Assembly (NCBI RefSeq): GCF_910592395.1
Contig: NC_088318.1
Location: 8,866,349-8,930,348, forward strand
Direction of reading: 5' to 3'
Length of the DNA: 64,000 nucleotides
Origin: Lineus longissimus
Lineage: Eukaryota; Nemertea; Pilidiophora; Heteronemertea; Lineidae
The notes below the pieces were generated by a model. The model worked only from the letters and a program-made list of their open reading frames with translations, was not told the origin of the DNA and made no database searches. Positions 11,505 to 51,880 of the stretch are shown piece by piece. Position 1 is the first letter of the stretch; every line of letters begins with the position of its first letter. Position numbers and translations under genes: made by a program.

Positions 11505-12380
11505 GTTATGCCCCCGCCAATGCGTAAAGCATTGCGGAGGCATTATGTTTTACCGATGTCCGTCAGGCATCAGGCATCTGTAAACTTTTCGTTTCTGGTC
11601 ATTTTTAAGGAGAACGCTTTTAGCGATAACCACGAAACATTTTTTGTGGGTTGACCTTTACTAAAGGAAGGTTTCTTTTGAAAACGGGCTTGTTGTGATT
11701 CTCGTTAAGGCCTCCAGGGTGGCGTGCTGGAAATTGGTTTCCGTCAATTTCGAGGAGAACTGTTTGTCCGATCAAATTCATTTTTGGTATGTACGTTGGG
11801 GGTGTCTAGAGGAAGGTTCCTTTCGAAAACAGGCTCATCCTGATTGTCAATATGGCCACCTGGGCAGCATGCTTGAAATCGGTTTCCGTCAATTTTGAGG
11901 AGAACCGTTCGTCCGATCAAATTAATTTTTGGTATGTACGTTGGGGGTGACTAGAGGAAGGTTCCTTTCGAAAACAGGCTCGTTCCGATTGTCAATATGG
12001 CAACCAGGGCGGTATGCTTGAAATCAGTTTCCGTCAATTTCGAGGAGAACCGTTCGTCCGATCAAATTGTTTTTCGGTATGTACGTTGGGGGTGACTAGA
12101 GGAAGGTTCCTTTTGAAAACAGGCTCATTCGGATTGTCAATATGGCCACCAGGGCGGCGTGCTTGAAATCGGTGTCCGTCAATTGCGAGGAGAACCATTT
12201 TTCTGATCAAATTCATTTTTATCCCCCCGCCAATTCATAATGCATTGCCGAGGCATTATGTTTTACCGATGTCTGTTCGTCCCGTCTCTGCGTCGGGCCG
12301 TCTGTGCATCCATTTGCCGTCTGTAAACTTTTCGTTTCCGCTCATTTTAACGAGAACGCTTTGAGTAATAACCATGTAAC
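11505..12380 (+). repeat. Tandem array of ~143 bp units flanked by two related border motifs
   Basis: About four units run from 11666 to 12215. Each contains 'gaggaaggttcctttcgaaaac', 'caatatggccaccagggcgg' and 'gaggagaaccgttcgtccga' with minor changes. Related borders (cccccgcc...gcattgc.gaggcattatgttttaccgatgt) lie at 11511 and 12224. The open frames here are by-products of the repeat. Confidence 0.85.
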
Positions 12381-12389
12381 TTTTTATGT

Positions 12390-13200
12390 GGGTAGAAAAA
12401 GATAACATGTACAGCGGGCATTACTGACCAATAACTCTTTCACGATGTCAACTAAACCCAGTCAGCTATGACTCCAGCTGCCCGGTTGTCTGAAAAACAC
12501 TTCACTTTCCTAATACACCAACTCAATGTGCTCACACGGGCATATGCCACGCCTTGCGTTGCTATTGTTTTAGTAGTTACAGACTAGCTCATATTAATAT
12601 CAACACATGTGACTTGTGATATCTCCCAAAATACCAGACTGATTTCAATGTGGTTTGGACAGGGTTTCCACACAAATCTTATTGTCTATATGAACATTCT
12701 AATCTGAATGAAATGCGTCATTGTTGTCACTATGTAATCAACCATTTGAAAAAGGTCCACAAAATAACTTTCTTTTTTCAGGAAAAATTCCACTAAAAAA
12801 CCAATAGTGTTGTAGTGCAGCAATCTGGGGTGTTTTCATGTTGATATCATATCTTGATTTCGAGCTATCCTGCTTTTTCTGCAGAAACTAGCATATACCC
12901 GTGGCGAGGGCTGTTTGAGGTATTAAAATCGGATTGTGTGGGTGCTGGTATGTTGTGGGTTTGGTGTAAATGGGGTGCTGGTTTGTGAGTAAAATCTCCG
13001 GGCATTATCTATATTTACGTCAATGGCGACAGTGGTATATTGATATTGATAGATGATATGTTACTCAGAGTCATAAAATTTCCACTGTTTTTCTGTGTAA
13101 AATGTCTCCAGTGTTGTTGTTGTTGCTAACAGTAAACTATGATGCGGCCTTACTGGAATCCCCTACTTACTTATACTTCTAACAACAACAACACACAACT
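12390..13200. other. Unassigned region
   Basis: No gene or clear repeat. TGTTGTTGTTG near 13115 and AACAACAACAAC near 13185 are complementary and may be part of an inverted structure with the region downstream. Confidence 0.35.
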
Positions 13201-20619: not shown

Positions 20620-21448
20620 AACTACATAGTATTTAAAGCCTACAGCTTAATTACATTCTGTAATGATTTTCATGCGAGACCGTTCAAGTTTGGAGTATGC
20701 AACGATGTACTTTTTTATTCATCATACTTCCCGAATAATCATTATTTACATGCGATCATCCTGTTTCACGTTCTGCGGTAAAATGTTTGATACAGCGAAA
20801 CGTTTAACAGCATCTTGAAAGATGTTTTCCCACATTTAAAGGCTTTCTTCTGTACCAGCATAAAATCTAAGTTGAGATCTCGTTGCCACTGACATAACAA
20901 TAACTTTACACTCAGACAATTATAGCCAGTGTAGAAGTATAAATGTCCCCCCGGAAAATTTTCCGGCCCTCCGTCGTGTCCATTGCCCTTTTGTATTAAC
21001 GGATTATGGCAAATGACCGTCATATGACCGTCGGTGCATAATGGAATCATTTGCTCCCCGGAAATTCTTTTCTAAGGACATTTCAGACTTCTACACCGGT
21101 GCACGTATTTCTTCCCAAGCGTCCCCAAGCCAAGAAAAATATCTGTCTGAATATGTGGACGTGATTGTTATCATGACTACCGGTAGCCAGCACTACTCGT
21201 ATGTTTGATCCACACTTTTTACCTGCAGAACTCCTGGCGGCTCTACCAAACTCCAATTACACTGTCTGCTGGTTTATAATTTTTTGCCCTTCAGGCATAC
21301 ATTTGCTGTGTAGACAGGTGATATTCAAAGACATATTTGGTGGCATATACTCATTCCTCATATCGGTCAGTATACTCATTATTACCACAAAAAATCCCTT
21401 ACTATCAACTGACTTCATTCTTAAAATAAAATTATTGCGAAAAAACAC
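20620..21448. other. Unassigned region left of the DIRS element
   Basis: No gene or repeat recognised. Confidence 0.35.
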
Positions 21449-21628
21449 ATTTTATGTCGTTCATACTCTACCCAGGTCAGACTTTTGCATGTGTACTCCA
21501 TTCGGACACACCCGAGGAAGAAATAATCTATTTATAATAGAAATCTCTTAGCTAGTTCGCTTAGCTACACCTAGGCGGCGCCCCTATACAGCCTCTGCCT
21601 CGTATGAGCCGCCATCACCAGTACTTTT
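21449..21628 (+). repeat. Left inverted terminal repeat of DIRS element
   Basis: The segments 'acttttgcatgtgtactcca', 'ttcggacacacccgagg' and 'ctaggcggcgcccctataca' occur inverted at 41591-41827. Confidence 0.9.
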
Positions 21629-22954
21629 TCCTCGGCCCACTGTAACACACTGTATTGAGTTTTCTGACGTCGTTTTCGCCCAATTTTGGCTGATTCCACG
21701 CTAAAGAAGGACACCCCGGGACACCTTCAGGAGGCTTATTTATTCTAGGAGACGGGTGAGATCGTTCTTTTGCAATCCCCCCTCGATTTCTACTGTTGGA
21801 GCGTGCTTTTTCTGCCGTTCCCAAGAAATTTTTTCTCCGTTCTCCCGGGCTGTGGGTCACGTGACCCGTTCGTTTTTTTAACTTTAGTGGTTTTTTCCGA
21901 TAGAAAATCGGCATAATGGTATCTTTATTGCCGTCTTTTCTCTCTTCTCTGGGTGTTCCACCCTTTGTTTTGGACCTCCTGCCCTTCAGGGCGGATTTTC
22001 GAGGTCCTTTTACGGGTGTATCGGGGATTCATAGTCCTCGGCCCGGTTCTTCCCCCTGTCGGGGTGCGGGTAGTTGGACCCTTCCGCCCCCGGGATGCCT
22101 TCCTCTTCTCCCGGCACTGCCGGCAAGAAGACGAAGAAGGTGAGGAGAGGGGCGCGACCCTCGAAGGGAAGGGGGTCTTTGACCCTCTCTCCCTCGCCCT
22201 CCTCACGGTCCCCGCTAAGCGGTGAGGTCCACGGGGCTCTGGGGGAGTTTCGACCCCTACCGACCCCTCCCCCAGGCCGGGCACCCCTCTTTTGGGGGTG
22301 TGCCCCCTGGGGAGGCCTTGGGTTTGAGTGTTGGTGACCCTGGTTCAGGGACACTCCCCAGGGCTAGACCTGCCCCCTTTCCAGGGGGCACGGCCCCGGT
22401 TGGGACTCTGGACATTTTACGTCCCGATCCCCCGCCGACGCCCCCACCTGTCATGGGTTGGTGAGCAGCGTCGTCACCGGTGAGCCGCCTGTTTCAGGCA
22501 TGCTTGCCGGCGGCGACTGGCACTGCCAGCGCCACAGTTGAGTCCACAAGGATCCGCCACCCCTTCGCTTTAGGGCGGGCTCCTCCGTCCGACCCTCACT
22601 CTGTGAGTTGGTCGTCTCTTCGGACGCCCCCTGGCTGGGCAAGACCGGGTTTCACCTTCCCGTCTTTGCCGCCGTTCACCGCACCCGGAGGTGTCCTGCC
22701 CGGTGTGGGCAGGGGGTTGGTGATCGACCACTAGTCACGGGCGAGGGGCCCTGGTGCCCCCCCCCCCCCCCCCGTTATGGGTGCCGTCAGACCGTCGGTT
22801 TCCCCGGTCCGACCCCACCCTGCTCTGTCGGGTATGTCGGGGTTGACGGGTGTGGCTGCCGATCAGGCATGCCCCCTTCCCCCCTCCTGTGTCTGCCCCA
22901 CGGGAGTCCAATTTGAGCTCTTAGCCTCAGCCTCTTGCTTCCTCTCTCACGGAG

Positions 22955-24510: not shown

Positions 24511-24514
24511 GAGA

Positions 24515-24565
24515 CATGTCGGTTCAAATCACCACAAATGTGTGTTTTAGTTTTCTAGGCCACAG
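24515..24565 (+). repeat. Left TIR of the RAG1-N-like transposon
   Basis: An imperfect match of ~45 bp to the complement of 38760-38803. The left copy carries about 6-9 extra bases between GGTTCA and TGTGTG. Confidence 0.85.
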
Positions 24566-25178
24566 CAGTGATAATCATCAGCGGAAACGGGGTCACTGTC
24601 ATCTCCTTGGCAATACCTTTGTTTCAAAATGGCGGCCATGAATAGAATAGTGTGAGGTCTGCCACTTCTAATGACTAACAAATGTCTGTCTCTAAGTGAA
24701 CTTTGTGTTTTCTTGTTTACTGCTTCCCGTATCACATATCTGATCATTAAGGTCAAATTCTTTTCTTGCTTCTCATTCCTAAAAGTGGTTTACACGTGGC
24801 ATGACTGTAGCATTGGATTATGTGTGGTTTCCTCATGAAAGTGGATAATCTAGCATCATATTTTGGGGAGTTCTCTGGTTCTGAGGCCAATTTTGTTTCT
24901 TTTATTCAATAAAGGATATCCTCAAATTTCGGAATATATCAGCATTAGTCTGTTAGGATTTGGATATTTCATGAATTCAAGGTTATTTTGAACACCCATT
25001 TAATTGTCAAAGTACCTGTGAGTAGATTTTTCACTACACTTGTAAATTTTGTGTCTTTTCCTTTTCTTTAAGCTTGATTTCATGTTGATATGTTTTCTTT
25101 TTGTTGTTTCATTGTTTGTAGCATGCATTATTTTGATATCATTGCATTGTAATATGTCATTTTAACCCCTTTTTCACC
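24566..25178 (+). other. 5' non-coding part of the RAG1-N-like transposon
   Basis: AT-rich DNA between the left TIR and the first Met of the transposase. It presumably carries the promoter; no specific element is recognisable. Confidence 0.4.
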
Positions 25179-28100
25179 ATGCACAATCAAATTACTCATG
25201 TGAACAATATTAATAGGGTGTGCAGAATATGTCTGAGACCAGCACAATCACCAAGTCAAGCTCAGAAAAGAAAGTCACCTCTTTTGTGCAATAACTATGT
25301 AGAAGGGATTTCTTCCACCTGGTGTTTAGATATTCGGTGTGACGTTGCAGGGCAACACCCAGATAAATTGTGCATGCTGTGCTATATCTTCATGAAGAAA
25401 TATTCACCAGATTCATCTGTAGTTGCAGAGCAGAGAGTTTTGGCTGCTGATAATGAGCGGTTATTCACTCCATTCCTTCCAACTGAGGAGTCATGTAAAG
25501 TCTGTGCCAAAGTTGCTATTTATAAAAGGGGTGGGTGTAATGCGAGAGAAAAAAAGAAAGCAGGGCGACCCAGTAAGAAGAAACTAGACTTTGTTCTAGA
25601 AGATGCAGCAGATGGGATTTTTCAGCATTTATTTCCAGCTCATGAACAATGTATTCCCCTGTTAGGTGAATATGAAATTGTCGGTTTATCAGAGGAATTA
25701 AGTTCTACTTTTATTTGCTGTGTGTGTTCGAACATATATCACCCCCAGTCAGTCATAACCCCATGCCAGCATGTATTTTGTTCATCTTGTGTAAGCGTTT
25801 TGTTTCGCAACGCAAGGCTCAATACAATCAGTTGCCCTGATTGTAAAAGTAAAATTAGTTTCTGTGATATTAAGTCGGTTCCTGAAAGGTTTAGGAAACA
25901 GGTATTGCACTTGAAAGTACAATATAAACTCTGTGGTGTTCAAAATAACCTGAATCATATTCAAAAACATGAGTGCAAGAAAACCCCTGAAAATGACAGC
26001 ATTCTTGGTTTTCCACAAATTTCTACTCCGCCATCCACTCCTGCACACATTCCCGAACCTGACATGCCAGACCCACAAGAACCTGACGTGCCAGAACCAC
26101 AAGCACAACCTGACATGCCAGAACCACACACTCCTGTCATGGCAGAACCACAACCCAGAATAGCATTCCTCCATGGACAAGCAAAGACTACTAGGTCCGG
26201 AGGAAGAACGCCTGTTGACTAGCCTTGTCCGCAGGAAACTCCAGTCATCTGCCAACAAGAAATTTCTAATGTGTAAAACTGGAGGCCAGGTATGTATAAT
26301 TCCTTTTTGTTCATGAAAATGTTATTTCAAATTTTCTCAAGTACCCAATTCAGTCTGTTGATTTGAAACTCTGCGAGTACCAGTAGTCAAAATACTATTT
26401 ACAAGTTGATTCATCCTGATTACAGCAGATGTGTTTTAACAAACACATCAAACCTCGCAAGCCAACTGACAAGGTATCTTCTCCTATAAAACGTTTGCGA
26501 TCAAGAGAGATTGAAAAAACACGCAAGTTCGTCAGTGGAGGGAAGTCTCTTCTGCAACTTGGAAGAGAGCTCCGTGTCAAGAACAAAATATCGAAGCAGC
26601 TAATACTAGACCATGCAGGACTTAAAGTCGCCAAATTGGAAAGACATCAGCAATTGGCAATGAAATCGACGGTTGGTCTTTCTTGGAGACAGTTAAGAAA
26701 GTTAAAAAAGTATGATCAGTTTATAATAGCATCGTTTTCCGAATTTCTGAAAGTTAGAGGTTGTTTAATATAAATATTGTTCAGAATACATCTTTCTTAT
26801 TTTATTCTCTACAGGTTTTTCAAAGCAATAGGGGTCAAATATGAAGGCGAAGGGGCGGCAAGAGATTTAAAGAAATCACTTGTAGGTGACAACATCCGTG
26901 CAGAGATGGTTTTTTTCCAAGTGAGAGATGACCATTCTTCCGACAGCATTGGTGGTTACACCCTAAGGAAGGCTCCATATGCATATGCAGTTAGCCTGGA
27001 AAACTTGGTCTGTGATCACGTGGATGCCCATCTTAAGTAAGTCCCAGCATAATTATCCGTTTCCCTGCAAATTGAAAGTTCCTCTTTTTGCCATTTAACT
27101 TCTCAATTTCGTCACACACTTTGGTACTTGTAACGGTAGTATGTCTATTTTGCAGGCTTGGTAATTTGAGGTGGCATGGAAACATGCCAAAAGATGAGAT
27201 TTGGTTAAAGATTGGCGGTGACAAGGGAGGGGACACAGTCAAGCTAGAGTTCCAAATAGCAAATGTGGAGAACCCAAATGCTGCTGCAAATACAATTGTA
27301 TATTGCTATTATGAAGGCAGCGACAGTTACACGAACTTGCAGATAGCCTTTGACAGGTTCAAGGAAGACGTAAAAAATCTGCGACTCTCTGCATGGAAGT
27401 AGGTCCTTATTTCGACTATATTTCTTTTTAATTTATATTATACCTTTACTAGTAGCACTCAGTTTTTACCCAAGCTCCCTCCGTTTCGGGCAAAATCTGG
27501 CATGTTTTTTGATAGTATACTTTTTTACTTTCAGCGACAAGGAAATCAGAATGTTCCTTTTTGGCGACTACGAGTTTTTAACTAAGGTTTACGGGCTAAG
27601 CGGAGCATCTGGTAAGCAAAACAATATGTTGTATTTTCTACATTGTATGCTGTCAAAACACTTATATATTTCTTTATTATGTATCATATGAAACAATCAG
27701 AAGTTGCCAATCTGATTTTTAGGTCGTCATCCCTGCCTTTGGTGTGAAGTGTCCAGTCAGGAGATGCAAACTCCGTTGGGTGCAAGAGGACATGCAGCAA
27801 AACGATCAAAGCACACATTAACTCGTGATCACCGTCGATTCTTGAATGAAGGAAAGGGGATGATAAAAGATGCCAAAAACTACAACAATGTCATCAATGA
27901 AAAACTAATTGGTATTCGTTTAAACCAGGTAAGGGATCAGTTTCACTTCAATGACTTGAAACAAATGCTTAACACATTTAATTTCATAAAACAACTTTAT
28001 TATTGGTTATTCATTTTATTCATTGGGTGCAAGAGGACATGCAGCAAAACGATCAAAGCACACATTAACTCGTGATCACCGTCGATTCTTGAATGAAGGA

Positions 28101-29576
28101 AAGGGGATGATAAAAGATGCCAAAAACTACAACAATGTCATCAATGAAAAACTAATTGGTATTCGTTTAAACCAGGTAAGGGATCAGTTTCACTTCAATG
28201 ACTTGAAACAAATGCTTAACACATTTAATTTCATAAAACAACTTTATTATTGGTTATTCATTTTACCTGCAAGCATTTTGTTCTATTTTAGGTGTGTGTC
28301 CCCTACCTCCACATTCTGCTGGGTGTTGTTAAGAAGCACCATGAAATGCTAGAAGAGGAATGCCACACCCTCGATCTGCTAATTGCAGAAGACCAGGCCA
28401 GGCATGGTGGTCTTACCAATGAGGAAGGCCTTTATGCCACCTATGTTGAGAGCGTAAGGCGCTTACAGAAATTAGAAAGCAGAATCAGCCGGAAGAAAGC
28501 TGTTCTTGAACAGTATGATGAGAATACCACAATAGGACAGCTTGCTCAGCAAACTGGAGACAAAAGATCATTAGAAAAAAGAATAGAAAAGCTTGTGAGT
28601 ATACAAACAGTTTTATTGTTAGTTCATTGAGAAACAGTACCAGGTTGGGTGTATTCAATAACAATTTCCAATATATTTTCACCATGTACCGGCATCTTTT
28701 TTTCAGGAAAAAGAAAAGACAGACTTGCAAAAAACTGCTGTGTTACATAAAGGAACAGGGAAGGTGGCATCAGAGCTGGATGTCGTGCTGAACCGACACA
28801 ATATCTGCAGACAAGTCTATCGTGGGAAAAGCTTCATTGGAAATCACTGCGCACATTGCCTCAAGGTAAGCCCATCACACTATCAAATGGATTTAAATTT
28901 CTTACACTCCTTAATATAACCTAAATGGTACAGTAATTAATATTATTCTTTCATTTCTTTTAGCCTGTAGTCTTTGAAGATCTAGGAACAAGTCTTATGG
29001 AAAAAACAGCAGAACCAAGTGGTGACGCTGACATTAACCGAAAGGCTGAAGTTATTGCTGAAAAATTCAACACCCTGAATTCCTTGCTTTCTGAAGTTCA
29101 TGAGAAGGTTGGCCACGCCAAGCCAGTCCCTGAAGACGAGATACAGATGATCGGTAAATACTTACATCATTTTGATGAGTCAGTTAATTTACTGTGTTTG
29201 ATATTCATTGAATCATTGCGATTTTGATTTCAGTATAGATTATAACATTCATAAGAATAAAACCTTGTTTTTTTCAGAAGTGTGCATTCAGAAATATCTG
29301 AATTTCTGTCGAAGACGACTCAAAGGAAGAATCTTCCCAAAGCTTCATTTTCTTGAATACCATGTTGTTGCATGGATAAAGTTATGGGGCTTTGGTATGG
29401 GTCTGATGGGGGAACAAGGCGGCGAGTCAATCCATGCAGAAATTAACAGAATTCAGAGGATTAACTGTGCAGTTTCGAACAAACTTCAAAAGTATGCTTC
29501 TATCCTAAAAGAGCACCATAGTCGCAACCATCCAGAACTGAAGAAGAAGGGAGCCGAGGTGTGTGGATCAAATCAG
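25179..29576 (+). CDS. Transposase: RAG1-like zinc-finger N-terminus fused to a DDE core, ten exons
   Basis: Exons: 25179-26289, 26426-26709, 26815-27036, 27156-27398, 27535-27611, 27723-27928, 28292-28594, 28707-28865, 28964-29153, 29278-29576 plus 37803-37850. All introns are GT-AG with matching phases. Residues 15-68 hold CRIC and CMLC pairs, 106-109 CKVC, 125-135 an AT-hook-like AGRPSKKK, 180-222 a RING (CVCS, CQHVFCSSC, CPDC), 252-266 a C2H2-like finger. This order matches the RAG1 N-terminus. A Pro/Glu-rich linker follows, with a frame change near 26164-26188. The core has WLKIGGDKGG (first Asp), MFLFGDYEFL (second Asp) directly followed by CLWC, PYLHILLG, GKSFIGNH and GLMGEQGGESIHAEIN (Glu). 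Predicted length is about 1,045 residues. The role is cut-and-paste transposition. The start Met is the first in frame; an earlier exon is possible. Confidence 0.85.
27776..28266 (+). repeat. 247 bp tandem duplication across an exon-intron border
   Basis: Copy 1 (27776-28022) covers most of transposase exon 6, its donor site at 27929 and the first intron part. Copy 2 (28023-28266) repeats it essentially without change, including the donor at 28176. Copy 2 lacks its own consensus acceptor, so splicing from the first donor to 28292 would still give a normal message. The near identity indicates a recent event. Confidence 0.95.
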
Positions 29577-30444
29577 TGTACCATAGCTACATGAAAAAAA
29601 CACTACTAAATTACCAGAAGAAACACAAACCCTGAAGCTGTTTTACACAAATACACAAACACACTTTATTCACAATAACAGGAACAAGCCAGGTAAACAT
29701 AAACATATTATAAGTGTCAACACCACCAGAGCTCATTGAATGCTAGGAGAAGTTCGCTCCGTCTGTAACTGAAGACACATCCGCCAGTAGAAACACAGTC
29801 ATGTACATGTAGAGATGACGTCACGAAAAAGAACAGGATGAGTGCAAGTCCGGTAACGGAAGTGAGTGACAAAGAGAAGTCACGGTTTACGAAGGCCTTG
29901 AATGACAAACAGGAAGTACACATCCAACAGGAAGTACATATATCTAACAGGAAGTACGACAACACGTACACGTACACGTAAACGTAAAGTGCCCCTCCTT
30001 GCGGCCGCCACAGAGACTTGTTTTAAACGACTTTACGAAATAGCTGTATCACATGTGCACGAGTCTATGTCGGTCTGTGCCAATACATAGTTTGAAATAT
30101 CCCTCGAGACACACAGCCCGACACACAGTTAGAAAAGCATTCTTTCCATTTATAGGCTTGGAAAGAATTAATCACAAACGTCGAACCTTGGAGTAAATTG
30201 TCCAAGAAGGAGAAACAGGAGCAAACGTTCTTCTGGTCTCCACACCACAGAGCTCTGCACACGAATGGCCGAGTGTAGAAAACTAATAAAATGAACCTAT
30301 GCACTTACGTAAGAAGGTAAGTGCATAGGCCTAAAATAAACTGTGTTTGTAAACAAGTCTCTTGATGGCGTCCACCACAAGCCAGCACCATACATGTTGT
30401 AATAAAATAATTAACTCAGGTCCTATTTGACCAACAACCGAACA
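29577..30444 (-). repeat. 3' LTR of BEL/Pao element
   Basis: 868 bp and apparently identical to 36930-37797, which dates the insertion as young. It begins next to the purine tract at 30445-30456. Confidence 0.97.
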
Positions 30445-30456
30445 TCCTCCCCTCTG
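30445..30456 (-). promoter_or_regulatory. Polypurine tract of BEL/Pao element
   Basis: CAGAGGGGAGGA on the minus strand, immediately before the 3' LTR. This is the usual site of plus-strand priming. Confidence 0.85.
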
Positions 30457-30656
30457 AAAATCGAATTAACCCAAGTATAAAGATTTTTACTACAAACTAA
30501 AAACAAAATCTCTCTGTTGCTTGCGCGCGCTACGCTTGTAGCATTTTACTATATGAATCGTTTGAACAAAGTATACTAGTAGTGCAAACATTATCATCGG
30601 AAATTGCAATGACTTCATCATGTCCTAATCTATAAGTAATAATCGTACGCGATAAT

Positions 30657-32528
30657 CTACTGATTATCTACTGGTTCAAGTAACCTTAACTTCTGTACTG
30701 GTCGCCGTCTCAGACCAGCAGCTGTCCTCACTGTCACGGACCTCACTAAGTTGTCCCTGCCTGGGTGCAACTCTTCCACTTTGGCCAACGTCCAGTCTCC
30801 CTTTCGCATCCCTTCTTCTGCCAAAAATACAACGTCCCCAACTTGAAGGTTGTCCCTTACATCGGTCCACTTCCGCATCTGCTGGAGTTGGAGAAGGTAC
30901 TCTGTTGTCCATCTGTTCCAAAATTGCTTCATAAGAGACTGTTGGTACCGCCAACGCTTGCCAAGTGTGGTCTGTGCTGTAACCTTGTCAACCTCCGGAA
31001 GAGACTGGGGGGTTCGTCCTATGGCAAGGTGCCCCGGAGTGAGGGGCAACCAATCCTCTGTATCACTCGACACCATGGTCAATGGACGCGAGTTCACCAT
31101 TGCCTCTACTTCCGTTAAAACAGTCATCAGCTCAATCTGGGTGAGCTTCGATTTCCCGAGAACCTTCTTCAATGGTCTCTTTACCGATCCAACCATTCTC
31201 TCGTAAAACCCACCGTGCCATGGAGCACGTTCAGTGATGAACTTCCAGCGTATGCCCTCTTGTTCTAACTTGTCTCTAACATCATCCTGCTTCTTGAAAA
31301 TCTTCTGGACTATGTCTGAAGCCTTCTTAAAAGTTTTAGCGTTGTCCGACAGCATCATCCGACATCGTCCTCTTCGGCTCATCATTCTCCGCAAGGCCAA
31401 CATAAACTGCTCAGTAGTCAGTGTTTCGACAAGCTCAAGGTGTATGGCCCTAGTCACCATACAGGAAAACAGACAAATGTACACTTTGCTTGTTGATTCA
31501 CCTCCAACTGTGACCCTCACGAAGAGTGGCCCAGCAAAATCGACACCGACATTAGTGAATGCTGGTGCGATTGATATACGCTCCTCTGGCAAAGGTGCCA
31601 TTCGTTGGTCGATCTTGAGAGGTTCTCGACAGGTTTTGCACGTATTGAGTATCCGCCGCACCTCTTGTTTCCCATGGACAATCCAATATCTGTTTCGTAG
31701 ACTTGCTAGAGTCTGAGCCGCTCCAGGATGCAAGGTAATCTTATGGTAATGCATCACAATCATCTTCACGAACGAATTGTGAGTCGGAAGAACGATTGGG
31801 TGCTTCACTTCTTCTGGCAGCGGGGCATAGTTGAGGCGACCACCTACGCGGATAACTTGTGATCGCTTATCCCAATATGGGTTCAATTGGACGATGACAC
31901 TTGTCTTCTCTACACTCTCTCCAGCTTTAAGCTTCTGTATCTCCTTCTGGAAATGCTTCTCTTGGGCCCATTGTATCCAATGAAGTTCTTCCTTCCTCCT
32001 CTCACTCAATCGATCACTCCCCTCATCTGGGACAGTGTCTACATCTTTGTTTGCTTTGTATCTTCGGTATAGTGTGATCCAACTCCTCAATCTCATCATG
32101 ACTCTGATGAATTTCTCATAGTCTGAAAATTTCTCCACATATTGTTCTACCTCGGAGTCCTTGAGTCTTTGACTGGGCAAAACCGCCAACGAGGTACTTG
32201 TTGTCTTCTTCTTCTCGTTAGCCTTCTCGGCTTCATTAGAGACCACAATTGTTGGGGGCCACTCCGTTTCCTTTTGCCTCAGAAACAGTGGTCCATCCCA
32301 CCACAGTGCGGAGTCGACCACTGCTCTCGCTGTGACACCTCGTGAGCATAGGTCCGCAGGATTAAGTTTGCCGGGCACGTATCTCCAATTCAGTGGTCTA
32401 ACAAGCTGTTGAATCTCTGACACCCGATTAGCAACGAAAACTTGCCATGTATACGCTGGCTTTGAAATCCAGTGCAACACGACCTGAGAGTCAGTCCAAC
32501 AGGTTGTCTTCTCTATTAGCAGCTTGAG
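30657..32528 (-). CDS. BEL/Pao RNase H end and integrase
   Basis: Same frame as the two preceding parts. It starts with the last RNase H segment (TDSQVVLHWI, YVPGKLNPADLCSRG). A His/Cys zinc-binding region (HPGAAQTL to CKTC) comes next. The integrase core has VGVDFAGPL (Asp), LSDNAKTF (Asp) and GGFYERMVG (Glu). A C-terminal DUF5641-like region (GDVVFLAEEGMRKGDW) follows and the frame stops at 30657. The enzyme would insert the DNA copy. All catalytic residues are present, so only the two upstream stops mark this copy as possibly defective. Confidence 0.92.
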   Translation of the reverse strand, partial: LKLLIEKTTCWTDSQVVLHWISKPAYTWQVFVANRVSEIQQLVRPLNWRYVPGKLNPADLCSRGVTARAVVDSALWWDGPLFLRQKETEWPPTIVVSNEAEKANEKKKTTSTSLAVLPSQRLKDSEVEQYVEKFSDYEKFIRVMMRLRSWITLYRRYKANKDVDTVPDEGSDRLSERRKEELHWIQWAQEKHFQKEIQKLKAGESVEKTSVIVQLNPYWDKRSQVIRVGGRLNYAPLPEEVKHPIVLPTHNSFVKMIVMHYHKITLHPGAAQTLASLRNRYWIVHGKQEVRRILNTCKTCREPLKIDQRMAPLPEERISIAPAFTNVGVDFAGPLFVRVTVGGESTSKVYICLFSCMVTRAIHLELVETLTTEQFMLALRRMMSRRGRCRMMLSDNAKTFKKASDIVQKIFKKQDDVRDKLEQEGIRWKFITERAPWHGGFYERMVGSVKRPLKKVLGKSKLTQIELMTVLTEVEAMVNSRPLTMVSSDTEDWLPLTPGHLAIGRTPQSLPEVDKVTAQTTLGKRWRYQQSLMKQFWNRWTTEYLLQLQQMRKWTDVRDNLQVGDVVFLAEEGMRKGDWTLAKVEELHPGRDNLVRSVTVRTAAGLRRRPVQKLRLLEPVDNQ

Positions 32529-33527
32529 TTAATTTCTGACGTATGTCACCAGTCTAGCATTGATGAGCGCGGCAATGAGTTCCAGCTCAGGAATGCTACG
32601 TCTCTTCCCAATAGGAGACAGACGAGTCTTTGAAAAGAGCAGTGTAGAATACTTCCTTCCAGATGGTCTATCTTCAGCCAAGAGATAGATTGCACTGCCG
32701 TAGGAAGCTTCGCACGCATCGCCAAAACCATGGAGGGAGTAAATTGGATTCTGGAAATCTTCAGGTTTGAGGCATCGAGGAACTTTGATTTCATCGAGGA
32801 TCTCAACTTGTTCCTTCCAAGTCCTCCATTCATGATCTAGCTCCTCGGGTAAAGGGTCGTCCCATGTCCCTTGTGTCAGCCATGTTCTCTGGAAAATCTG
32901 TTTTGCCTTTATGGTGAACGGAGAAAGCATTCCTAACGGATCGTATACTCTGTGTAACTGCTGTAGAACAGAACGACGAGTCTCCACCGGCCTATCGTCC
33001 ATTCTCTCAAGGAAGGAAAACATGAGGACATCTTCACGTGGTGAGTATTTCACGCCCAGCGTCTTTGTGCTTTCCTCGGCAAATGTTGCAACCTTGTGAA
33101 ATGAAGCTAAGTCTCTCTCTTCTAAATGAGATAGCGCCTCTGGCTTGTTCGAAATAAATTTTCGCAAAGAAAACCCTCCGTCATACAAAACAGTCTTCAA
33201 ATCAGTTGTTAAAGTTGCCGCGTCTTCTACTAATTCCTCACCAGTAAGAACATCATCAACGAAGATGTTGTCTTCGATCTCAGCGACAGCTTTTGGATAT
33301 GATTCCTTCTTTGTCTTCACGTGGTCAAGAATCGTCTGTATACTTGAGATTGGTGATGAAGTGAGACCAAAAGTCACCGTTGTTAAACGATAAACCTCCG
33401 GTTCCTTGGACTTGTCCAAACCTCTCCATAAGAACCTCTGAGAATCCTGATCCTCTTTTCTCATTTTAACTTGAAGGAACATCTTCTCGATGTCAGCCAC
33501 TAATGCCACTCTGTGGCGTCTAAATCG
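32529..33527 (-). CDS. BEL/Pao reverse transcriptase central part
   Basis: The frame is continuous with the Gag-protease frame after the TAG. It contains ALVADIEKMFLQV, the TFGLTSSP region and the catalytic NIFVDD motif, followed by the thumb-like PLGMLSPF segment and the start of RNase H-like sequence (FGDACEASYGSAIY). It ends at a second in-frame stop, TAA at 32529-32531. Without readthrough or an internal start this part would not be translated; a Met codon follows the first stop only in the form of alternative starts. Confidence 0.9.
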   Translation of the reverse strand, partial: RFRRHRVALVADIEKMFLQVKMRKEDQDSQRFLWRGLDKSKEPEVYRLTTVTFGLTSSPISSIQTILDHVKTKKESYPKAVAEIEDNIFVDDVLTGEELVEDAATLTTDLKTVLYDGGFSLRKFISNKPEALSHLEERDLASFHKVATFAEESTKTLGVKYSPREDVLMFSFLERMDDRPVETRRSVLQQLHRVYDPLGMLSPFTIKAKQIFQRTWLTQGTWDDPLPEELDHEWRTWKEQVEILDEIKVPRCLKPEDFQNPIYSLHGFGDACEASYGSAIYLLAEDRPSGRKYSTLLFSKTRLSPIGKRRSIPELELIAALINARLVTYVRN

Positions 33528-36086
33528 CTACAAAACCCCTGGGAGATCCGGCTGCAATGCTGGCCCTGGCAGCAATGTCTCATTTAACGATACACCTTCA
33601 TATCCAATCATGGACCCATCAAAAACAACACGCACTTTGGTCGTCGTCTTATCTCTTCGCACGACTGGATGGTGAGGAAGGTACCAAACCTGATGATTGT
33701 CAGGCTCTCTATCCTCCAATACCTTTTCGGCTCTTCCAGCTGAGAGCAGGTCTTGAATCTGAGCTTCATACTCGGATGCTAATCTGGGGTCTCTCTTCAG
33801 TCTCTTCTCGAGTCCTATTAGACGATTTGTAGCTAAGGCTCTGTTGCTTTTGAGGATCCTATCCTTGTAACTTGGATGACGTGGTAATCCAGTCACATAA
33901 TGGTCTCCTACTCGTGTTGTCATCATTCGGTGTTGCTCCAAGGCCGAAGTCTCAAGTTCAGTCGAGTTCTTACTCTCATTAGGACGAATTCCCAGGTGTT
34001 CAAGGTCCCAAAAACGGGTTGCCATCTCAGTTTCATTTTGTTCTTGGAAGCTGACGCGGTGGACACAATAAGTACGGTTGACTACGGTCTGGGTTGAGTA
34101 CGGCCCACATAGGATCCAGCCTATGTGAGTCTTCTGTGCCATGGGCGTTCCTGGAGGCCCTCTGATTCTCTTCTCTTTTAAGATGTTGAGAGTGTCTTCA
34201 ATGCCCAGAAGAACATCCACTTCAGAGTTTGCCTGGACAGGAAATTTTTCCGCGAGCTGTAGACCCCTCAAATGACTCATCTTGGTGAAATCCACGTTGA
34301 CAGCATTTATCGGAGCACTTGGCTTGTCCAAAATGTACGCAGAAATTTCGAAAACTTCTCCCTTCCAGCCAGGAAGAATTCCCGATAGATAGAACTTGAC
34401 CTTCTCAGTAGTGGTAGCCATCACCTCTCCACCTGCCAAGATGAACTCACCTTCAACCTTGGGGCCTCTCAAATTCAATCTTTTTGCCATTGAACGGCTT
34501 ATGAACGTAACACCACTCCCGGTGTCCAGTAACACGCGACCTTCCGCAACCCTAGACTTTGACTCAAGTTTGACTATGCCGCTCTGCATGACGACATTCG
34601 TTGAACCAGTAGACTTGACCAGTCCTGCAGTCGATTCAACTTTGTTCTGATGTGGTACCTTTGATGTAAGGTTAGAAGAACCTGATACATTACTTCTCGC
34701 AGCGTTGTCACTTCCACTTCTTTTCTCGAAGTGGAGCAAAGTATGGTGATTCTTCTTACACGATTTGCATCCCCTAGATCGACATGTTTTTACCATGTGG
34801 AATCTCGACAAGCAATTGAAGCAAGCCCTTGCTGCTTTCACACGCTCGCATCTCTCCTCAACACGCATCTTGGAAACGGACGGACACGAATAGGATTGGT
34901 GTGCATTATCACAAAAGACACACCGACTTTCGGTACTCTCCTGTGTTTGTGGGGTCACATTCAAGGCGTGGCCAGATGGACGCCTTTCAAATGATCTTTC
35001 CTTTTTTGGATCGTTTGGAAGGGACTCTGACCTTCTAGCAACCTTCACTGCATCTTGGATCTTCTCGATCAAGTCGTCAATTCGAATTGGAAGGTTGGAC
35101 GGAGCTGTCGTTCTCTTTTCTTCTTTGATTCGTTCGCTGTCCCACTTTCTCACCAAACTCTTCGGCATCTTCCTCCTTACTAACGCAGTGAGAATCCAAC
35201 TAGATCGGATGAGCTCTGGGTCATCGTGTGTCCTCTTCTTAATGTAATTCCAGTTTGCCACCAGTGTGTTCAGCACAGGATCCAACTCTCGAACTGTGGG
35301 ACTTTTTACAACTGGAACACTAGCTATCTCATTGACAGCCTTCTCAATGCGAGCTAACACATCTCCGTAAAGATTCTCTAAGAACTCGATTATTTCTTCG
35401 TAGCTTGGGTCTTTCAAACCAGACACCAACTTTGCTACCTCTCCATCGAGTAATGAAATTACAACATGAGTCTTCTCGACGTCACTGTACCCAGGTTTTC
35501 TAACCTCTGCACCCACAAGATCTCGCCATTGATCAAATAGCTCAGTATCGCCCTTGAATTTTGGGATCTGAATAACTCGCTTCTTGTGCGTCAGCGTAGA
35601 AAGAATTTCTTCTAGTTGTGTCTCAGAAACGCCAGTGCTCACTCCGGCGAGAGCCTTTGACAAGCTTTCTGCAAACATTTCCGGGCTGAACTCAGATTTA
35701 GCAGATTTTCCGGATGCTTCACTTGCTTCCTGCACAGGTGATAAACATGCCTCTAACCCTTGTATCGAAGCACACATATGATTGTACGCTTTGAGGTATC
35801 TCACCTCACCATCATCATCTTTCACCGCTTTTAGGCGAGCATCATTGTCTGCATGATAATCTATTTGATCCTGCACTCCTGATAACTCCCCATAAACTTC
35901 CTCAACCCTTTTGAATGAAGAAAGAGCTGTACGTATCGCTATATGCACATCTTTTTCATTAGACTCATCATCAGCAACAAGTGTTTCAGCTTCCTTAGCA
36001 GCTGTATCTGTCACAGTGATATATTTTGTGAAGCGACCTCTGGTGATTCGCCTCTTCTCAAGCAACTCATTTAAACTTGCCGCCAT
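33528..36086 (-). CDS. BEL/Pao Gag, protease and start of reverse transcriptase
   Basis: 852 codons from an ATG at 36086. The N-terminal Gag part includes a DUF1759-like segment (IPKFKGDTELFDQW, roughly residues 170-240). A cysteine-rich region follows at about 390-460 with CVFC, a CFNC-type knuckle and CKSCKKNHH. The aspartic protease has LLDTGSGVTFIS near 525. The stretch HIGWILCGPYS and the N-terminal RT segment come next. The frame ends at a TAG (33528-33530); the same frame continues after it with more RT sequence, so the stop is either a nonsense mutation or a readthrough site. Products would form the particle, mature it and begin DNA synthesis in the cytoplasm. Confidence 0.92.
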   Translation of the reverse strand: MAASLNELLEKRRITRGRFTKYITVTDTAAKEAETLVADDESNEKDVHIAIRTALSSFKRVEEVYGELSGVQDQIDYHADNDARLKAVKDDDGEVRYLKAYNHMCASIQGLEACLSPVQEASEASGKSAKSEFSPEMFAESLSKALAGVSTGVSETQLEEILSTLTHKKRVIQIPKFKGDTELFDQWRDLVGAEVRKPGYSDVEKTHVVISLLDGEVAKLVSGLKDPSYEEIIEFLENLYGDVLARIEKAVNEIASVPVVKSPTVRELDPVLNTLVANWNYIKKRTHDDPELIRSSWILTALVRRKMPKSLVRKWDSERIKEEKRTTAPSNLPIRIDDLIEKIQDAVKVARRSESLPNDPKKERSFERRPSGHALNVTPQTQESTESRCVFCDNAHQSYSCPSVSKMRVEERCERVKAARACFNCLSRFHMVKTCRSRGCKSCKKNHHTLLHFEKRSGSDNAARSNVSGSSNLTSKVPHQNKVESTAGLVKSTGSTNVVMQSGIVKLESKSRVAEGRVLLDTGSGVTFISRSMAKRLNLRGPKVEGEFILAGGEVMATTTEKVKFYLSGILPGWKGEVFEISAYILDKPSAPINAVNVDFTKMSHLRGLQLAEKFPVQANSEVDVLLGIEDTLNILKEKRIRGPPGTPMAQKTHIGWILCGPYSTQTVVNRTYCVHRVSFQEQNETEMATRFWDLEHLGIRPNESKNSTELETSALEQHRMMTTRVGDHYVTGLPRHPSYKDRILKSNRALATNRLIGLEKRLKRDPRLASEYEAQIQDLLSAGRAEKVLEDREPDNHQVWYLPHHPVVRRDKTTTKVRVVFDGSMIGYEGVSLNETLLPGPALQPDLPGVL

Positions 36087-36911
36087 ATTGTACTATTGTA
36101 CTTGAGTATGAAAATAAAGACACACTGAGGGGAGGATGTTTTACACCGCACAATAATTGCTTTATACGAGATGACCGGTCGCAATTGGCACGCACCGTTT
36201 CTAATCAGCTAGTGCCAATCTCGACAAGTATGCTCCAAAGGTTCTCCACTTAAAACCCACGACGAAATGCTTAGATTCTTATTTAGAATCTCTACACCCC
36301 ATAGTCCTCGGCTCAACACTACCTTATGCACAAATATGTCACGTAACAATTTAATACCAGTGAATGAATGAAACACACGTAACGTTACTGATCACTATAA
36401 GAGTACATGTATATGCAACACATCATCAAATTATATGACCAGAGCACCGTTGCTCAAACAACTGAAAATAACAAATGCACTTATATGCATTTGGCCCATT
36501 TTGCAATACACAACTCTAAACTCATTGAATAGAACATGATACCAAAATGTCGTACCGAATGAAATATGCCGTGTGAATAGTGATGACACGCACAAAACGA
36601 CCACACCAGAATTGTAAATGAAAATGTAAGAAACAAGAAACACCTCATTCACATCTCATTCACAGTGACACACACAAGACGCATTCGCACATGACTCATT
36701 TACAATGACGCAAACGTAACGTTGCACGCACATGACGCATTCACACAACCGGTACGCTATGAAATACATGTAGGCATGAAAATTGATGTCAGAAATGCAT
36801 GAACTTGTGACATAGATCTCTACAAAGACAACAAACAATCACCAATGAATGCTCCTGGAAAGAAAAATTGATCAGCAAAACAGCCTCGAAGAATGTGATC
36901 TGGATGAAAAA
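36087..36911 (-). other. Leader of BEL/Pao element
   Basis: About 825 bp of non-coding DNA between the primer site and gag. On the plus strand at about 36126-36139 it contains gaggggaggatgtt, the same 14 bases that form the polypurine-tract/LTR junction, in the opposite orientation. Confidence 0.6.
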
Positions 36912-36929
36912 TCCGGTCGGAGAGACCAA
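36912..36929 (-). promoter_or_regulatory. Primer binding site of BEL/Pao element
   Basis: The minus strand reads TTGGTCTCTCCGACCGGA directly after the 5' LTR. The TGG start fits pairing with the CCA end of a tRNA; I could not assign the tRNA. Confidence 0.65.
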
Positions 36930-37797
36930 TGTACCATAGCTACATGAAAAAAACACTACTAAATTACCAGAAGAAACACAAACCCTGAAGCTGTTTTACA
37001 CAAATACACAAACACACTTTATTCACAATAACAGGAACAAGCCAGGTAAACATAAACATATTATAAGTGTCAACACCACCAGAGCTCATTGAATGCTAGG
37101 AGAAGTTCGCTCCGTCTGTAACTGAAGACACATCCGCCAGTAGAAACACAGTCATGTACATGTAGAGATGACGTCACGAAAAAGAACAGGATGAGTGCAA
37201 GTCCGGTAACGGAAGTGAGTGACAAAGAGAAGTCACGGTTTACGAAGGCCTTGAATGACAAACAGGAAGTACACATCCAACAGGAAGTACATATATCTAA
37301 CAGGAAGTACGACAACACGTACACGTACACGTAAACGTAAAGTGCCCCTCCTTGCGGCCGCCACAGAGACTTGTTTTAAACGACTTTACGAAATAGCTGT
37401 ATCACATGTGCACGAGTCTATGTCGGTCTGTGCCAATACATAGTTTGAAATATCCCTCGAGACACACAGCCCGACACACAGTTAGAAAAGCATTCTTTCC
37501 ATTTATAGGCTTGGAAAGAATTAATCACAAACGTCGAACCTTGGAGTAAATTGTCCAAGAAGGAGAAACAGGAGCAAACGTTCTTCTGGTCTCCACACCA
37601 CAGAGCTCTGCACACGAATGGCCGAGTGTAGAAAACTAATAAAATGAACCTATGCACTTACGTAAGAAGGTAAGTGCATAGGCCTAAAATAAACTGTGTT
37701 TGTAAACAAGTCTCTTGATGGCGTCCACCACAAGCCAGCACCATACATGTTGTAATAAAATAATTAACTCAGGTCCTATTTGACCAACAACCGAACA
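36930..37797 (-). repeat. 5' LTR of BEL/Pao element
   Basis: 868 bp, apparently identical to the other LTR. It contains an AATAAA on the minus strand about 130 bp from its end. Short open frames within it occur identically in both LTRs and are not genes. Confidence 0.97.
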
Positions 37798-37802
37798 ATC
37801 AG

Positions 37803-37850
37803 AAAAAGGGAACAGGAAAGCTTAAGAAGACAGACAATTTCAATGACTAG
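37803..37850 (+). CDS. Last 15 codons and stop of the RAG1-N-like transposase
   Basis: Directly after the right ATCAG duplication of the BEL/Pao element, the last-exon frame of the transposase continues through a Lys-rich stretch (KKGTGKLKK) to TAG at 37848-37850. The LTR insertion thus cut the gene just before its end. Confidence 0.85.
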   Translation, partial: KKGTGKLKKTDNFND

Positions 37851-38759
37851 TTTGAACACTTATACACCTGCTTGGTGATTGAATACTGCCTGATCTGAAG
37901 TGTGATTTGTCAGTTTTCTATTTTATTCTGTGCTTAAAGCTATTGCACCTTATGTTCGTTGTGTGAATTTATACAATATCAGTTTTAATTCTTCTGGGAA
38001 TTTCGGTTTTAACAGAAAGAAGATTATGATATTGATTACAATGTAAGTTTGTGCATTGTGTGGCTTGGATGGAGTTCATATTTTCATTTGTTATAACCAA
38101 TAATGAATTTGATTTCCTGACATTTCATCATCAGATTTTTGAATTTCAGATATTAAAAGTAGTGGGTTAACGTACTATGTTTTTGCTGTCAAATTTACAA
38201 AAACCTGTTCATTTGATATTTAAATCCATAATGAATGTTTCTGTCATTTAATACACCATTGTAACACTGTTAAACATCAATATTACCCACAGTATACATT
38301 CACCAATAATGCTAACATTTGATGTGCAAGCGGCCACAGACTGAAATGGAGTAACTTTCAATTGCAAAAGTTGATCAGGGAGGTAAATCCTAACACCAGT
38401 TTTTACTGTTTCTGAAAGATGAAAAGATTCTCTTGATTATGGTAACTAAATTGTGTTCATAAGAACCAGAGATCAGTTATCAAAAGATTAATTAAAACAC
38501 GCATAATTTACATGCAGAAAAATACTCGCAGAAGTTCACTTGCTTGTAGCTCAGTAACTACTGAACCGATTTCAGTGATTCAAACACCCACTTATAGCCT
38601 GGAATGTCTATTTCAAGACACACACTGTCCCACCTCGGTAACCCCATCCAGGAAGCAAGTAAAAATAGAATAATATGTGAGCCCCAGTCATGCGAGGTCA
38701 GCAGTTGATTGTCTGAACTCCAAGTAGGCCAGTCTAGATCATTGGAATGCGATAGGTAA
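37851..38759 (+). other. 3' non-coding part of the RAG1-N-like transposon
   Basis: AT-rich DNA between the transposase stop and the right TIR. No second gene is apparent. A stretch near 38550 resembles the 'tcagtaactactgaaccgat' word of other repeats. Confidence 0.45.
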
Positions 38760-38803
38760 TTACTATGGCCTAGAAACTAAAACACACACACTGAACCGCC
38801 GTG
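38760..38803 (-). repeat. Right TIR of the RAG1-N-like transposon
   Basis: Read from the outside inwards it is CACGGCGGTTCAGTG followed by TGTGTGTTTTAG and CTAGGCCATAG, paralleling the left end. Confidence 0.85.
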
Positions 38804-38807
38804 GAGA

Positions 38808-41528: not shown

Positions 41529-41590
41529 CAGACTACCCGCCATGCCTGTCCCCACAGCAACGGGACTTACTCGGTGCGCTCGAGTAATAA

Positions 41591-41827
41591 GTACTAGTGG
41601 TGGCGGCTCACACGAGGCAGAGGCTGTATAGGGGCGCCGCCTAGGTGTAGCTAAGTGAACTAGCTAAGAGATTTCTATGATAAATATGTAGCTAAGTGAA
41701 CTAGCTAAGAGATTTCTATGATAAATAGATTATTTCTTCCTCGGGTGTGTCCGAATGGAGTACACATGCAAAAGTCTGGGTAGGTATGAACTAATAAAAT
41801 GACATTTCCACAGGAAATGGAAATTTT
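41591..41827 (-). repeat. Right inverted terminal repeat of DIRS element
   Basis: Inverted counterpart of 21449-21628. It carries an extra direct duplication of ~42 bp (gtagctaagtgaactagcta followed by agagatttctatg, at about 41646-41687 and 41688-41730) that the left repeat lacks. Confidence 0.9.
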
Positions 41828-43939: not shown

Positions 43940-44592
43940 TTATGCCCCCGCTAAAGTGGGGGCATTATGTACTTGGGTGGTTTCCGGCCGCCGCCGCGTC
44001 CGCGTCCGCCGCACTGAATTCCAGGCTATAACTCAAGAACCCCTTGCTCGGCTGACTTGAAATTTTTAGGGGGTGTAGATCTTCGCATTCCGCTCGTTTA
44101 CTAGAGAACCAGAGGTCCAACAGTCTTCAAACTTTTGTGGTGTGATGGTCTATAATATGTGAGGTTCCCTATCGATTTTGGGCCCGACCCGAAATCAAAG
44201 ATGGCCGCCAGCCACCATCTTAGATTTTGGCATTCCGCTCGTTAACTGGAGAACCAGAGGTCCAACAGTCTTCAAACTTTTGTGGTGTAATGGTCTATGG
44301 TAGGGGAGGTTCCCTATCGATTTTTTGGCCAGACCCGAAATCAAAGATGGCCACCAGGTCCCCGACTTGGTGATTTGTATTCCGCCCCATAAATTAAGAA
44401 CCGAGTGAGTGACAGACCTGAAACTTATGTGGTGTTATTACCTAGTGTAGGGGAGGTTCCCTATCCATTTTGGGCCCGATCTGAAATCCAAGATGGCTAC
44501 CAGGCCTGACTTGGTTTTTCGCATTCCGACCTGTAACTCAAGAACCAAGTGAGTGACAGACCTGAAACTTATGTGGTGTGATGAGGTTGAGT
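43940..44592 (+). repeat. Tandem array of ~145 bp units
   Basis: Four units share 'gcattccgctcgtt', 'gaaccagaggtccaacagtc', 'aaacttttgtggtgt', 'ggaggttccctatcgatttt' and 'gaaatcaaagatggccacca', diverging to the right. The leader 'gcccccgctaaagtgggggc' resembles the border motifs of the 11.5-12.4 kb array. The array is broken at its right by the 3' end of a LINE. Confidence 0.85.
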
Positions 44593-45116
44593 AGGTTTAG
44601 TTTTAGTTTTAGTTTTATTTATTTATTATAGTGACAAGTATACAGTCATAATATATGTACAGATATCTAGAAATTAACTTAAGTACACCCAGCCCTCCTG
44701 GGCTTATTTGTCACTTCGAACTAAAAAATACATAATAGTTTTTAAGTGTCCAAAACAAATAGAAAAAGTACACAATATGACGGTGAAAAATAAATAAATA
44801 ATAATAATTAATTACCACCTTTGTTTAAACAAGAGTAAAAGAAACAGCACCCACCCCAAAATATATCTCTCAGGCAGGGAAAGTACGGACCGACCTTCTG
44901 TTTATTTAAACAAAATATCAGTCCGCACCCTCCACGCCCGAGAAACAAATTTTGAGGTTTGTGTTTGCCTATTGGTGCAACAGAAAATTAACTTGGCCTC
45001 CTCGGACATTGCTACAAATTCACGATGTGAAATACTAATAGAATTGAAAAAAGTAGCCCTCAATTCGTTAAATCGAGGGCAGGAACATAAAAAGTGCTGC
45101 TCATCTTCACATGTGT

Positions 45117-50324: not shown

Positions 50325-51880
50325 TCACCTTAGGGGAGTCTATACAACACCGCAGTGTCCGTCGTCCGTCGTCGTCGTCGTCGTATCCTATTTCTAAAAC
50401 AGTGGCACGTTTCTTAACCGCTAGGGCTATGAACTCAAAACTTTGTATGCCTGACCCCCAAGGTCAGATGACCTTTGACACTGAATTTCGGTCCGGTCTG
50501 ATTCTTGACTTGCCCACTAGGGGGCCAAAACTAAAAAAAGGAAAAAGTGCAATATCTCGCTTAATAGTGACTTCTTTTTTTTTCTTTTTTTATGGTAGGT
50601 ACTCAGAGCAAGGATACATCACATATCGTATGGGTTTTTGATTTGACCTTATTTTCAAGATCACAGAGGTCAAATGGTGTGAATTGGCCGTTTGTGTGTA
50701 ACTATGGCACGTTTCTCAGCCACTAAAGCTATGAACTTTAAACATGGTACACATGACCCCCTAGGTCAGATGACCTGTGACGCTGATTTTCGGTCCGGTC
50801 TGATTCTTGACTTGGCCACCAGGGGGCCAAAACGAAAAATTTGAATAGCGCCATATCTTGCTTATTACTGATTAGTTTTTGGTAAAAACTTTATGGTAGA
50901 TACTCTGAGCAAGGATACATCACATATGGTACAGGTTTTTGATTTGACCTTATTTTCAAGGTCACAGAGGTCAAATGGTGTGAATTGGCTGTGTGTGTGT
51001 AACTATGGCACGTTTCTTAACCACTTAAGCTATGAACTTTAAACTTGGTACACATGACCCCCTAGGTCAGATGACCTGTGACACTGATTTTCATTTCCGG
51101 TCTGATATTTAACTTGGCCACCAGGGGGTCAAACCAAAAATTTTAATAGCGCCATATCTCGCTTTTAACTGATTAGTTTTTGGTAAAAACTTTATGGTAG
51201 ATACTCTTAGCAAGGATACATCGCATATGATACGGGTTTTTGATTTGGCGTACTTGTCAAGGTCACAGGGGTCAAATGGCGTAAATTGGCCATTTTAGCG
51301 TAACTGTGGCACGTTTGTTAACCCCTAAGGCTATGAACTTGAGACTTTGTACAAATGACCCCCTAGGTCAGCTGAACTCTGACCCTGAATTTCAGTCCGG
51401 TCTGATTCTCGACTTGGCCACCAGGGGGCCAAAAGTGAAAACCTAGAAAGTGTGATATCTCACTTATTAGTGATTTGTTTTCAATAACATTTTTATTGTA
51501 GGTTCTCCTAGCAAGGATACATTACCTATCATATGAGTTTTTTCATTTGACCTGCTTTGCAAGGTCACAGAGATCAAATGGCGTAAATTGGTCGTTTGAG
51601 TGTAAATATGGCACGTTTCTTAACCACTAAAGCTATGAACTTGAAATTTGGTACACATGACTCCTTACGTTAGTTACCTCGGACACCGAATTTCGATCTG
51701 ATCTGGTACTCAACTTGGCCACCAGGAGGCCAAAACTAAAATAGGTAAAAAGTGCAATATCTCGTTTATTAGTGACTTGTTTTTGATGATATTCTTATGG
51801 TACTTACTCCAAGCAACGATACATCATATGTCATACCGACTTTGGTTTGACCTATATACTATACATTGTACAATGTTTCT
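50325..51880 (+). repeat. Tandem array, five units of ~302 bp
   Basis: The phrase 'atggcacgtttcttaaccac' in variants occurs at about 50401, 50704, 51006, 51307 and 51609, a constant spacing of 301-303 bp. A sixth, degraded start lies at about 51873. Each unit also holds 'gctatgaactt', 'gaccccctaggtcag', 'ttggccaccagggggcca' and 'aaggtcacagaggtcaaatgg'. A leader 'gagtctatacaacaccgcag' with CGTC repeats precedes it. Single copies lie at about 0.5, 6.4 and 15.8 kb. Confidence 0.95.

Follow-up and report, generated by a model that had tools for sequence, protein, structure and literature searches.

A putative Chapaev transposase with a RAG1-like N-terminus in the nemertean Lineus longissimus

The window analysed here is a stretch of 64,000 nucleotides from the genome of Lineus longissimus (NC_088318.1, 8,866,349-8,930,348, forward strand), and all coordinates given below are positions in this window. 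Three mobile elements are nested in it: a DIRS-like element is outermost, a Chapaev DNA transposon lies within it, and a BEL/Pao retroelement is innermost. The subject of this work is the transposase gene of the Chapaev element, for which ten exons with GT/AG splice sites can be read from the window DNA between 25179 and 37850. The original prediction had joined these ten exons in phase. The exons themselves were recovered but their joining in phase was not, with a TAG codon at 26220-26222 and the core in another frame; the end of the gene at 37850 is correct provided that the BEL/Pao insertion, which splits exon 10, is left out of the reading. The features of the gene and of the transposon are as follows.

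25179-26222, +, N-terminal open reading frame with the RAG1-N-like module; TAG at 26220-26222
25212-25532, +, Chapa zinc module, judged homologous to RAG1 residues about 105-224 (Cys signature, profile matches)
25560-25583, +, AGRPSKKK, basic AT-hook-like motif
25716-25844, +, RING (C3HC4), residues 180-222 (Pfam zf-C3HC4)
25923-25976, +, C2HC-type finger, first Cys replaced by Tyr in the window copy
26032-26153, +, Pro-rich repeats of the linker, with an expansion in sister copy L012 (self-comparison, copy alignment)
26173-26289, +, exon 1, beginning of the core in the second frame, where database gene P0001 starts
26186-26187, +, approximate site of a short frameshifting deletion relative to sister copies L009 and L010 (copy alignment)
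26426-26709, +, exon 2
26815-27036, +, exon 3
27156-27398, +, exon 4, DUF1280, first catalytic Asp at 27220-27222
27535-27611, +, exon 5, second catalytic Asp at 27566-27568
27723-27928, +, exon 6, CxxC
27776-28018, +, tandem duplication, copy 1, most of exon 6 and intron (243/243 identical)
28023-28265, +, tandem duplication, copy 2 (243/243 identical)
28292-28594, +, exon 7
28707-28865, +, exon 8
28964-29153, +, exon 9
29278-29576, +, exon 10, first part, H(4)H and catalytic Glu (Glu at 29424-29426 by profile alignment to RAG1)
37803-37850, +, exon 10, last part, resuming after the ATCAG duplication; stop codon at 37848-37850
24515-38803, +, Chapaev DNA transposon (ends from alignment with other genomic copies)
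24515-24565, +, left terminal inverted repeat, outer 5 bp CATGT; CACGG in sister copies
38763-38803, +, right terminal inverted repeat ...TGAACCGCCGTG (alignment with genomic copies)
24511-24514, no strand, left target-site duplication GAGA (direct repeat with 38804-38807)
38804-38807, no strand, right target-site duplication GAGA (direct repeat with 24511-24514)

The N-terminal frame and the core frame differ in the window copy, and the TAG at 26220-26222 ends the N-terminal frame because of this frame break; the sister copies L009 and L010, both full length, each carry a few extra bases near 26186. The top match of the core search was LOC135495245 (P0001, 605 amino acids, L. longissimus), and a splice of the window that includes the duplicated exon reproduces 605/605 of its residues; P0001 is thus the gene model of this very locus, and it starts at the core, without the N-terminal reading frame. 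At residue 249, the first Cys position of the C2HC finger, the window copy has Tyr and L009 has Cys. The element ends in CATGT...CCGTG, and most sister copies in CACGG...CCGTG. With the frame break, the exon 6 duplication, the insertion of a long terminal repeat (LTR) element, the lost finger Cys and the mutated left end, the window copy is not intact and, judged from its DNA, is a dead copy of its transposon.

The family to which it belongs can be seen elsewhere in the genome (391 Mb in 30 contigs, the window lying on contig C11). Searching with the N-terminal DNA returned at least ten other places, nine at 91-99% identity and one 158-bp piece at 79%; all ten were retrieved for comparison, and such copy counts are lower bounds. 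Since the N-terminal DNA is 96-99% alike in eight of the nine other near copies, the family is young. Both ends were found in seven of eleven places, window included, and the 4-bp direct repeats flanking them match in all seven (GAGA, GCCA, ATCA, GTAG, GGTG, TGCA, GCCA). In the stretches retrieved, L011 and L012 had the left end only, L016 the right end only and L018 neither. Copy L009 (C15:3620188, 5,801 bp) encodes 1,048 amino acids across all ten exons without an internal stop, and its exon 1, open over 1,116 nt, carries the RING together with the beginning of the core. The intact architecture claimed in the original prediction is thus a property of the family, as represented by L009, but not of the window copy. 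L010 is full length with three frame-changing deletions, and L013, L014, L015 and L017 (2,390-2,405 bp) have the same internal deletion joint, 25845 to 29495; that they share one joint points to a non-autonomous derivative spreading in trans. In L012 (C16:12215319) the tandem repeats of the linker are expanded to some 1.4 kb.

Several lines of evidence place the gene in the Chapaev superfamily. Exon 4 matches DUF1280 (PF06918) at 1.8e-17 and 64.1 bits (cut-off 25), and DUF1280 corresponds to Chapaev transposases according to PMC3985635, where RAG1 and DUF1280 are put in one clade. The core contains Asp, Asp with CxxC, H(4)H and GEQGGES motifs, the Asp, CxxC and GEQGGES elements having been read correctly from the sequence beforehand, and thereby the D, D, C(2)C, H(3-4)H, E set that defines the CMC(T) group in PMC12730594. 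In a 50-row core alignment D623 and C642 (P0002 numbering) are invariant, and D553, C645, H946, H951, E968 and E972 are at least 90% conserved. Chapaev hallmarks are 5'-CAC/GTG-3' ends and target duplications of 3-4 bp (PMC4079192); among the seven two-ended copies the left CAC is present in six (the exception is the window copy, CATG), the right GTG in six (the exception is L017) and a 4-bp duplication in all. The Chapa domain is recognizable by its Cys signature and by the profile match to the RAG1 N-terminus, and a RING follows it, as in the RING-bearing Chapaev subgroup. The window gene is therefore, on sequence characters, very probably the transposase of a Chapaev-superfamily DNA transposon. 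With the Pfam RAG1 core profile PF12940, neither seven pieces of the window nor ten relatives gave a hit at E up to 1.

The N-terminal module was identified as the published Chapa domain from the description given in PMC4411706. Its paired CxxC motifs (C15/C18, C65/C68, C106/C109), which had been noticed from the DNA alone, were borne out by an alignment of 21 rows including the window, in which five of the six Cys are conserved throughout and C18 in 17. The AGRPSKKK motif likewise stands at 25560-25583, and the RING predicted at residues 180-222 matches zf-C3HC4 at 2.3e-4 and 21.4 bits (cut-off 21). The finger had been called C2H2-like, but it is of the C2HC type: the H and the last Cys are present in 12/12 aligned RING-bearing members, and the first Cys, lost from the window copy, is kept in the remaining 11 of the 12.

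A Chapa profile built from 21 Chapaev domains, with no RAG1 included, retrieved RAG1 from the PDB at 2.7e-13 and, in full-length RAG1 (which we take to be the mouse protein), matched residues 105-224 at 4.4e-10. The next PDB sequence was 7po9 (LD30467p), presumably a ZAD protein, at 0.018. Conversely, Pfam RAG1_imp_bd (PF12560) matches 17 of the 21 Chapa domains at E up to 1, the best at 1.8e-10. A profile of RING plus finger found RAG1 (1rmd) at 1.1e-12, rank 15 of 248; RING2, RNF4 and TRAF6 rank above it, so the RING alone is not diagnostic of RAG1. The predicted core fold, obtained for the relative P0002, resembles RAG1 as well, with about 16% identity in the structural alignment. These results show that the N-terminus is RAG1-like beyond a generic RING at the level of the family, as had been predicted, and that homology to RAG1 extends over three parts: Chapa, RING plus finger, and DDE core. 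Twelve of the 21 Chapa domains also match zf-AD (Pfam) at E up to 1, the best at 1.3e-6, so that the first zinc module of Chapaev and RAG1 bears a weak resemblance to the ZAD domain of insects; among the literature entries listed, none connected these domains.

Some observations weigh against this reading. The window Chapa domain alone reaches only 0.0037 with RAG1_imp_bd, below the curated cut-off, and the longer N-terminal reading frame has no match to it at E up to 1; profile searches had been proposed as a check, and in them the RING and the DUF1280/Chapaev core held for the window but the RAG1 N-terminus only for the family. Used as a single query, the N-terminal part retrieved none of 842 candidates as a homologue at 0.001. 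At the sequence level the core profile A2 had no match to any RAG1 core in the PDB, the predicted structure is that of P0002 rather than of the window protein, and the left end of the window copy is mutated (CATGT for CACGG). We nevertheless consider it very probable that the window locus holds the defunct copy of a Chapaev cut-and-paste transposon, from a young family, whose transposase of about 1,048 amino acids is colinear with most of RAG1.

The different frames in the window, and a database model that begins at the core, could suggest two neighbouring genes, one for a RING protein that ends at 26222 and one for a transposase that starts at 26173. This is most improbable, since the single open exon and uninterrupted spliced reading frame of L009 join both halves and the relatives P0002, P0008, P0023 and P0025 are single proteins with the order Chapa, RING, DUF1280. 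Still less credence can be given to a domesticated RAG1-like host gene. A spliced structure of several exons and the existence of a database model would suit a host gene, but terminal inverted repeats, 4-bp target duplications, an insertion site within a second mobile element, nine more genomic places at 91-99% identity and deleted derivatives would not.

A third alternative, raised in the original prediction, concerns history, namely that an unrelated DDE transposase captured the RAG1 N-terminus, or that RAG1 captured its N-terminus from such an element. The very low core identity to RAG1 agrees with such a chimera, as does the way in which the RING comes and goes in the family: in an unrooted core tree of 34 sequences, 26 rows have a readable N-terminus, and the RING is present in 12 and absent in 14 of these, with at least three changes on the tree. 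A tree of the Chapa domain alone also fails to separate RAG1 from Chapaev (approximately unbiased test, p 0.377), so that it permits no call on module swapping. Capture need not be invoked, as the structural and profile evidence argues that the core travelling with this N-terminus is itself RAG1-like, and we regard a chimeric origin as unlikely. The RING-bearing rows include the window family and P0064 from the sponge Ephydatia muelleri, and for this reason early presence of the RING with repeated loss would be the simpler reading on the unrooted tree. Joint descent was argued from domain order in PMC4411706, with Chapa and RING fused to the core in the common ancestor of Chapaev and Transib/RAG. 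That Chapaev transposases are full-length colinear RAG1 homologues by joint descent, that many Chapaevs and the nemertean RAG1L lost the RING in repeated events, that RAG1 inherited rather than captured its N-terminus and that Chapa is a distant relative of insect ZAD is a compound proposal to which we give about an even chance.

The ends and 4-bp duplications of the family are observed directly in its DNA, and together with homology they suggest how the element may move. The transposase comprises Chapa, RING with C2HC finger, a linker and a DDE core of RNase-H fold, in which C(2)C and H(4)H motifs occur and a helical insertion precedes the final Glu. It would bind the CACGG.../...CCGTG ends, cut with its D-D-E triad in a cut-and-paste reaction, possibly through a hairpin intermediate by analogy with RAG1 and Transib, and insert with a 4-bp stagger; full-length copies may supply in trans the enzyme that moves the internally deleted derivatives of 2.4 kb. 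In RAG1 the N-terminal part serves dimerisation, E3 activity and regulation and is not needed for chemistry. By extension, Chapa plus RING may dimerise or ubiquitylate and regulate the enzyme while being dispensable for catalysis.

The other elements of the nest are the following.

21448-41801, +, DIRS-like element hosting the Chapaev insertion (inverted repeats 21448-21634 and 41581-41801, 75% alike by self-comparison)
29577-37797, -, BEL/Pao LTR retroelement inside exon 10 (LTRs 29577-30444 and 36930-37797)

The outermost element is taken to be DIRS-like from its reverse transcriptase motifs, and the two of its open reading frames that were compared with Pfam had no hit at E up to 0.01; its open reading across the junction is restored when the Chapaev element and one GAGA copy are omitted. 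The Chapaev element measures 6,063 bp once the BEL/Pao insertion is subtracted. The latter is flanked by an ATCAG duplication (29572-29576 and 37798-37802), and one of its reading frames matches Peptidase_A17 (Pao, Pfam) at 6.9e-41. Its LTRs of 868 bp each are identical (868/868, 0 mismatches), so this innermost insertion is very recent. Self-comparison of the window also showed diverged repeats at 50398-51853, 44076-44595 and 11506-12396.

The source of the regulatory N-terminus of RAG1 is one of the questions in how antibody-gene recombination arose, and this family is suited to asking where that front end came from. The original prediction, a transposase of intact architecture joining a RAG1 N-terminus to a non-RAG1 core, is partly supported: the architecture is real, the copy is broken, and the kind was already known. 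The lasting value lies in a young family with a full-length reading frame and in stronger evidence for colinear homology of Chapaev and RAG1. With such a frame in at least one copy, deleted derivatives and two RAG1-core loci in the same genome, it is a natural system for asking whether Chapa plus RING matters for transposition.

Among known systems, N-RAG-TP of Aplysia is likewise a mobile element with a RAG1-N-like protein; it is described as having the RAG1-N-like part only (PMC8355894). In L. longissimus, the frame at L019:1492-3258 (C11:7204222), of at least 589 codons, opens with a Chapa-like stretch (PF12560, 3e-8) and is otherwise without Pfam hits (E up to 0.01); it is possibly a stand-alone RAG1-N-like gene of the kind that N-RAG-TP is said to be. 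Transib (HzTransib) in its canonical form is described without Chapa or RING (PMC4411706) and makes 5-bp target duplications (PMC8355894).

Scanning the Lineus genome with PF12940 gave six matches, on C7 and C16 only, at two RAG1-core loci, C7:11998413 (L026, its match holding three internal stops) and C16:11365392-11368190 (L027). Both resemble the window family in having a Chapa domain upstream of the RAG1-type core (35.6 and 41.5 bits with the Chapaev profile). They differ from it in that these RAG1L cores match PF12940 and lack a clear RING: no RING-like stretch exceeds 10 bits in 9.9 kb around either locus, the best (10.0) lying upstream of Chapa. The RING domain (ZDD) is also given as absent from RAG1L of another nemertean in PMC7204232.

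Two echinoderm DUF1280 transposases, P0094 (Amphiura filiformis) and P0097 (Holothuria leucospilota), have a CxxC-rich, PHD-like stretch in the core insertion; the PHD match of P0094 (0.0031) is below cut-off and none is listed for P0097. RAG2 has a PHD, hence the interest of these stretches.

The closest described relatives are the two Chapaev subgroups with Chapa and RING (PMC4411706), owing to which the domain combination of the window gene is already known. They share with it the DUF1280-type core, Chapa followed by RING, CAC/GTG ends and a 3-4 bp target duplication. The nemertean family is nonetheless a separate one, with 27-45% identity to the other 96 homologues listed.

Vertebrate RAG1 differs in its core, since that of the window family has no Pfam RAG1 core match, and in its finger, which is C2H2 in RAG1 and C2HC here. 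RAG1/2 makes 5-bp duplications in experimental transposition (PMC8355894), but the 5-bp duplication of the RAG-like transposon and Transib (PMC7204232, PMC8355894) was not found in the window family, where it is 4 bp in 7/7. What vertebrate RAG1 and the window family share is the order and homology of Chapa, RING plus finger and DDE core, together with the predicted fold of that core.

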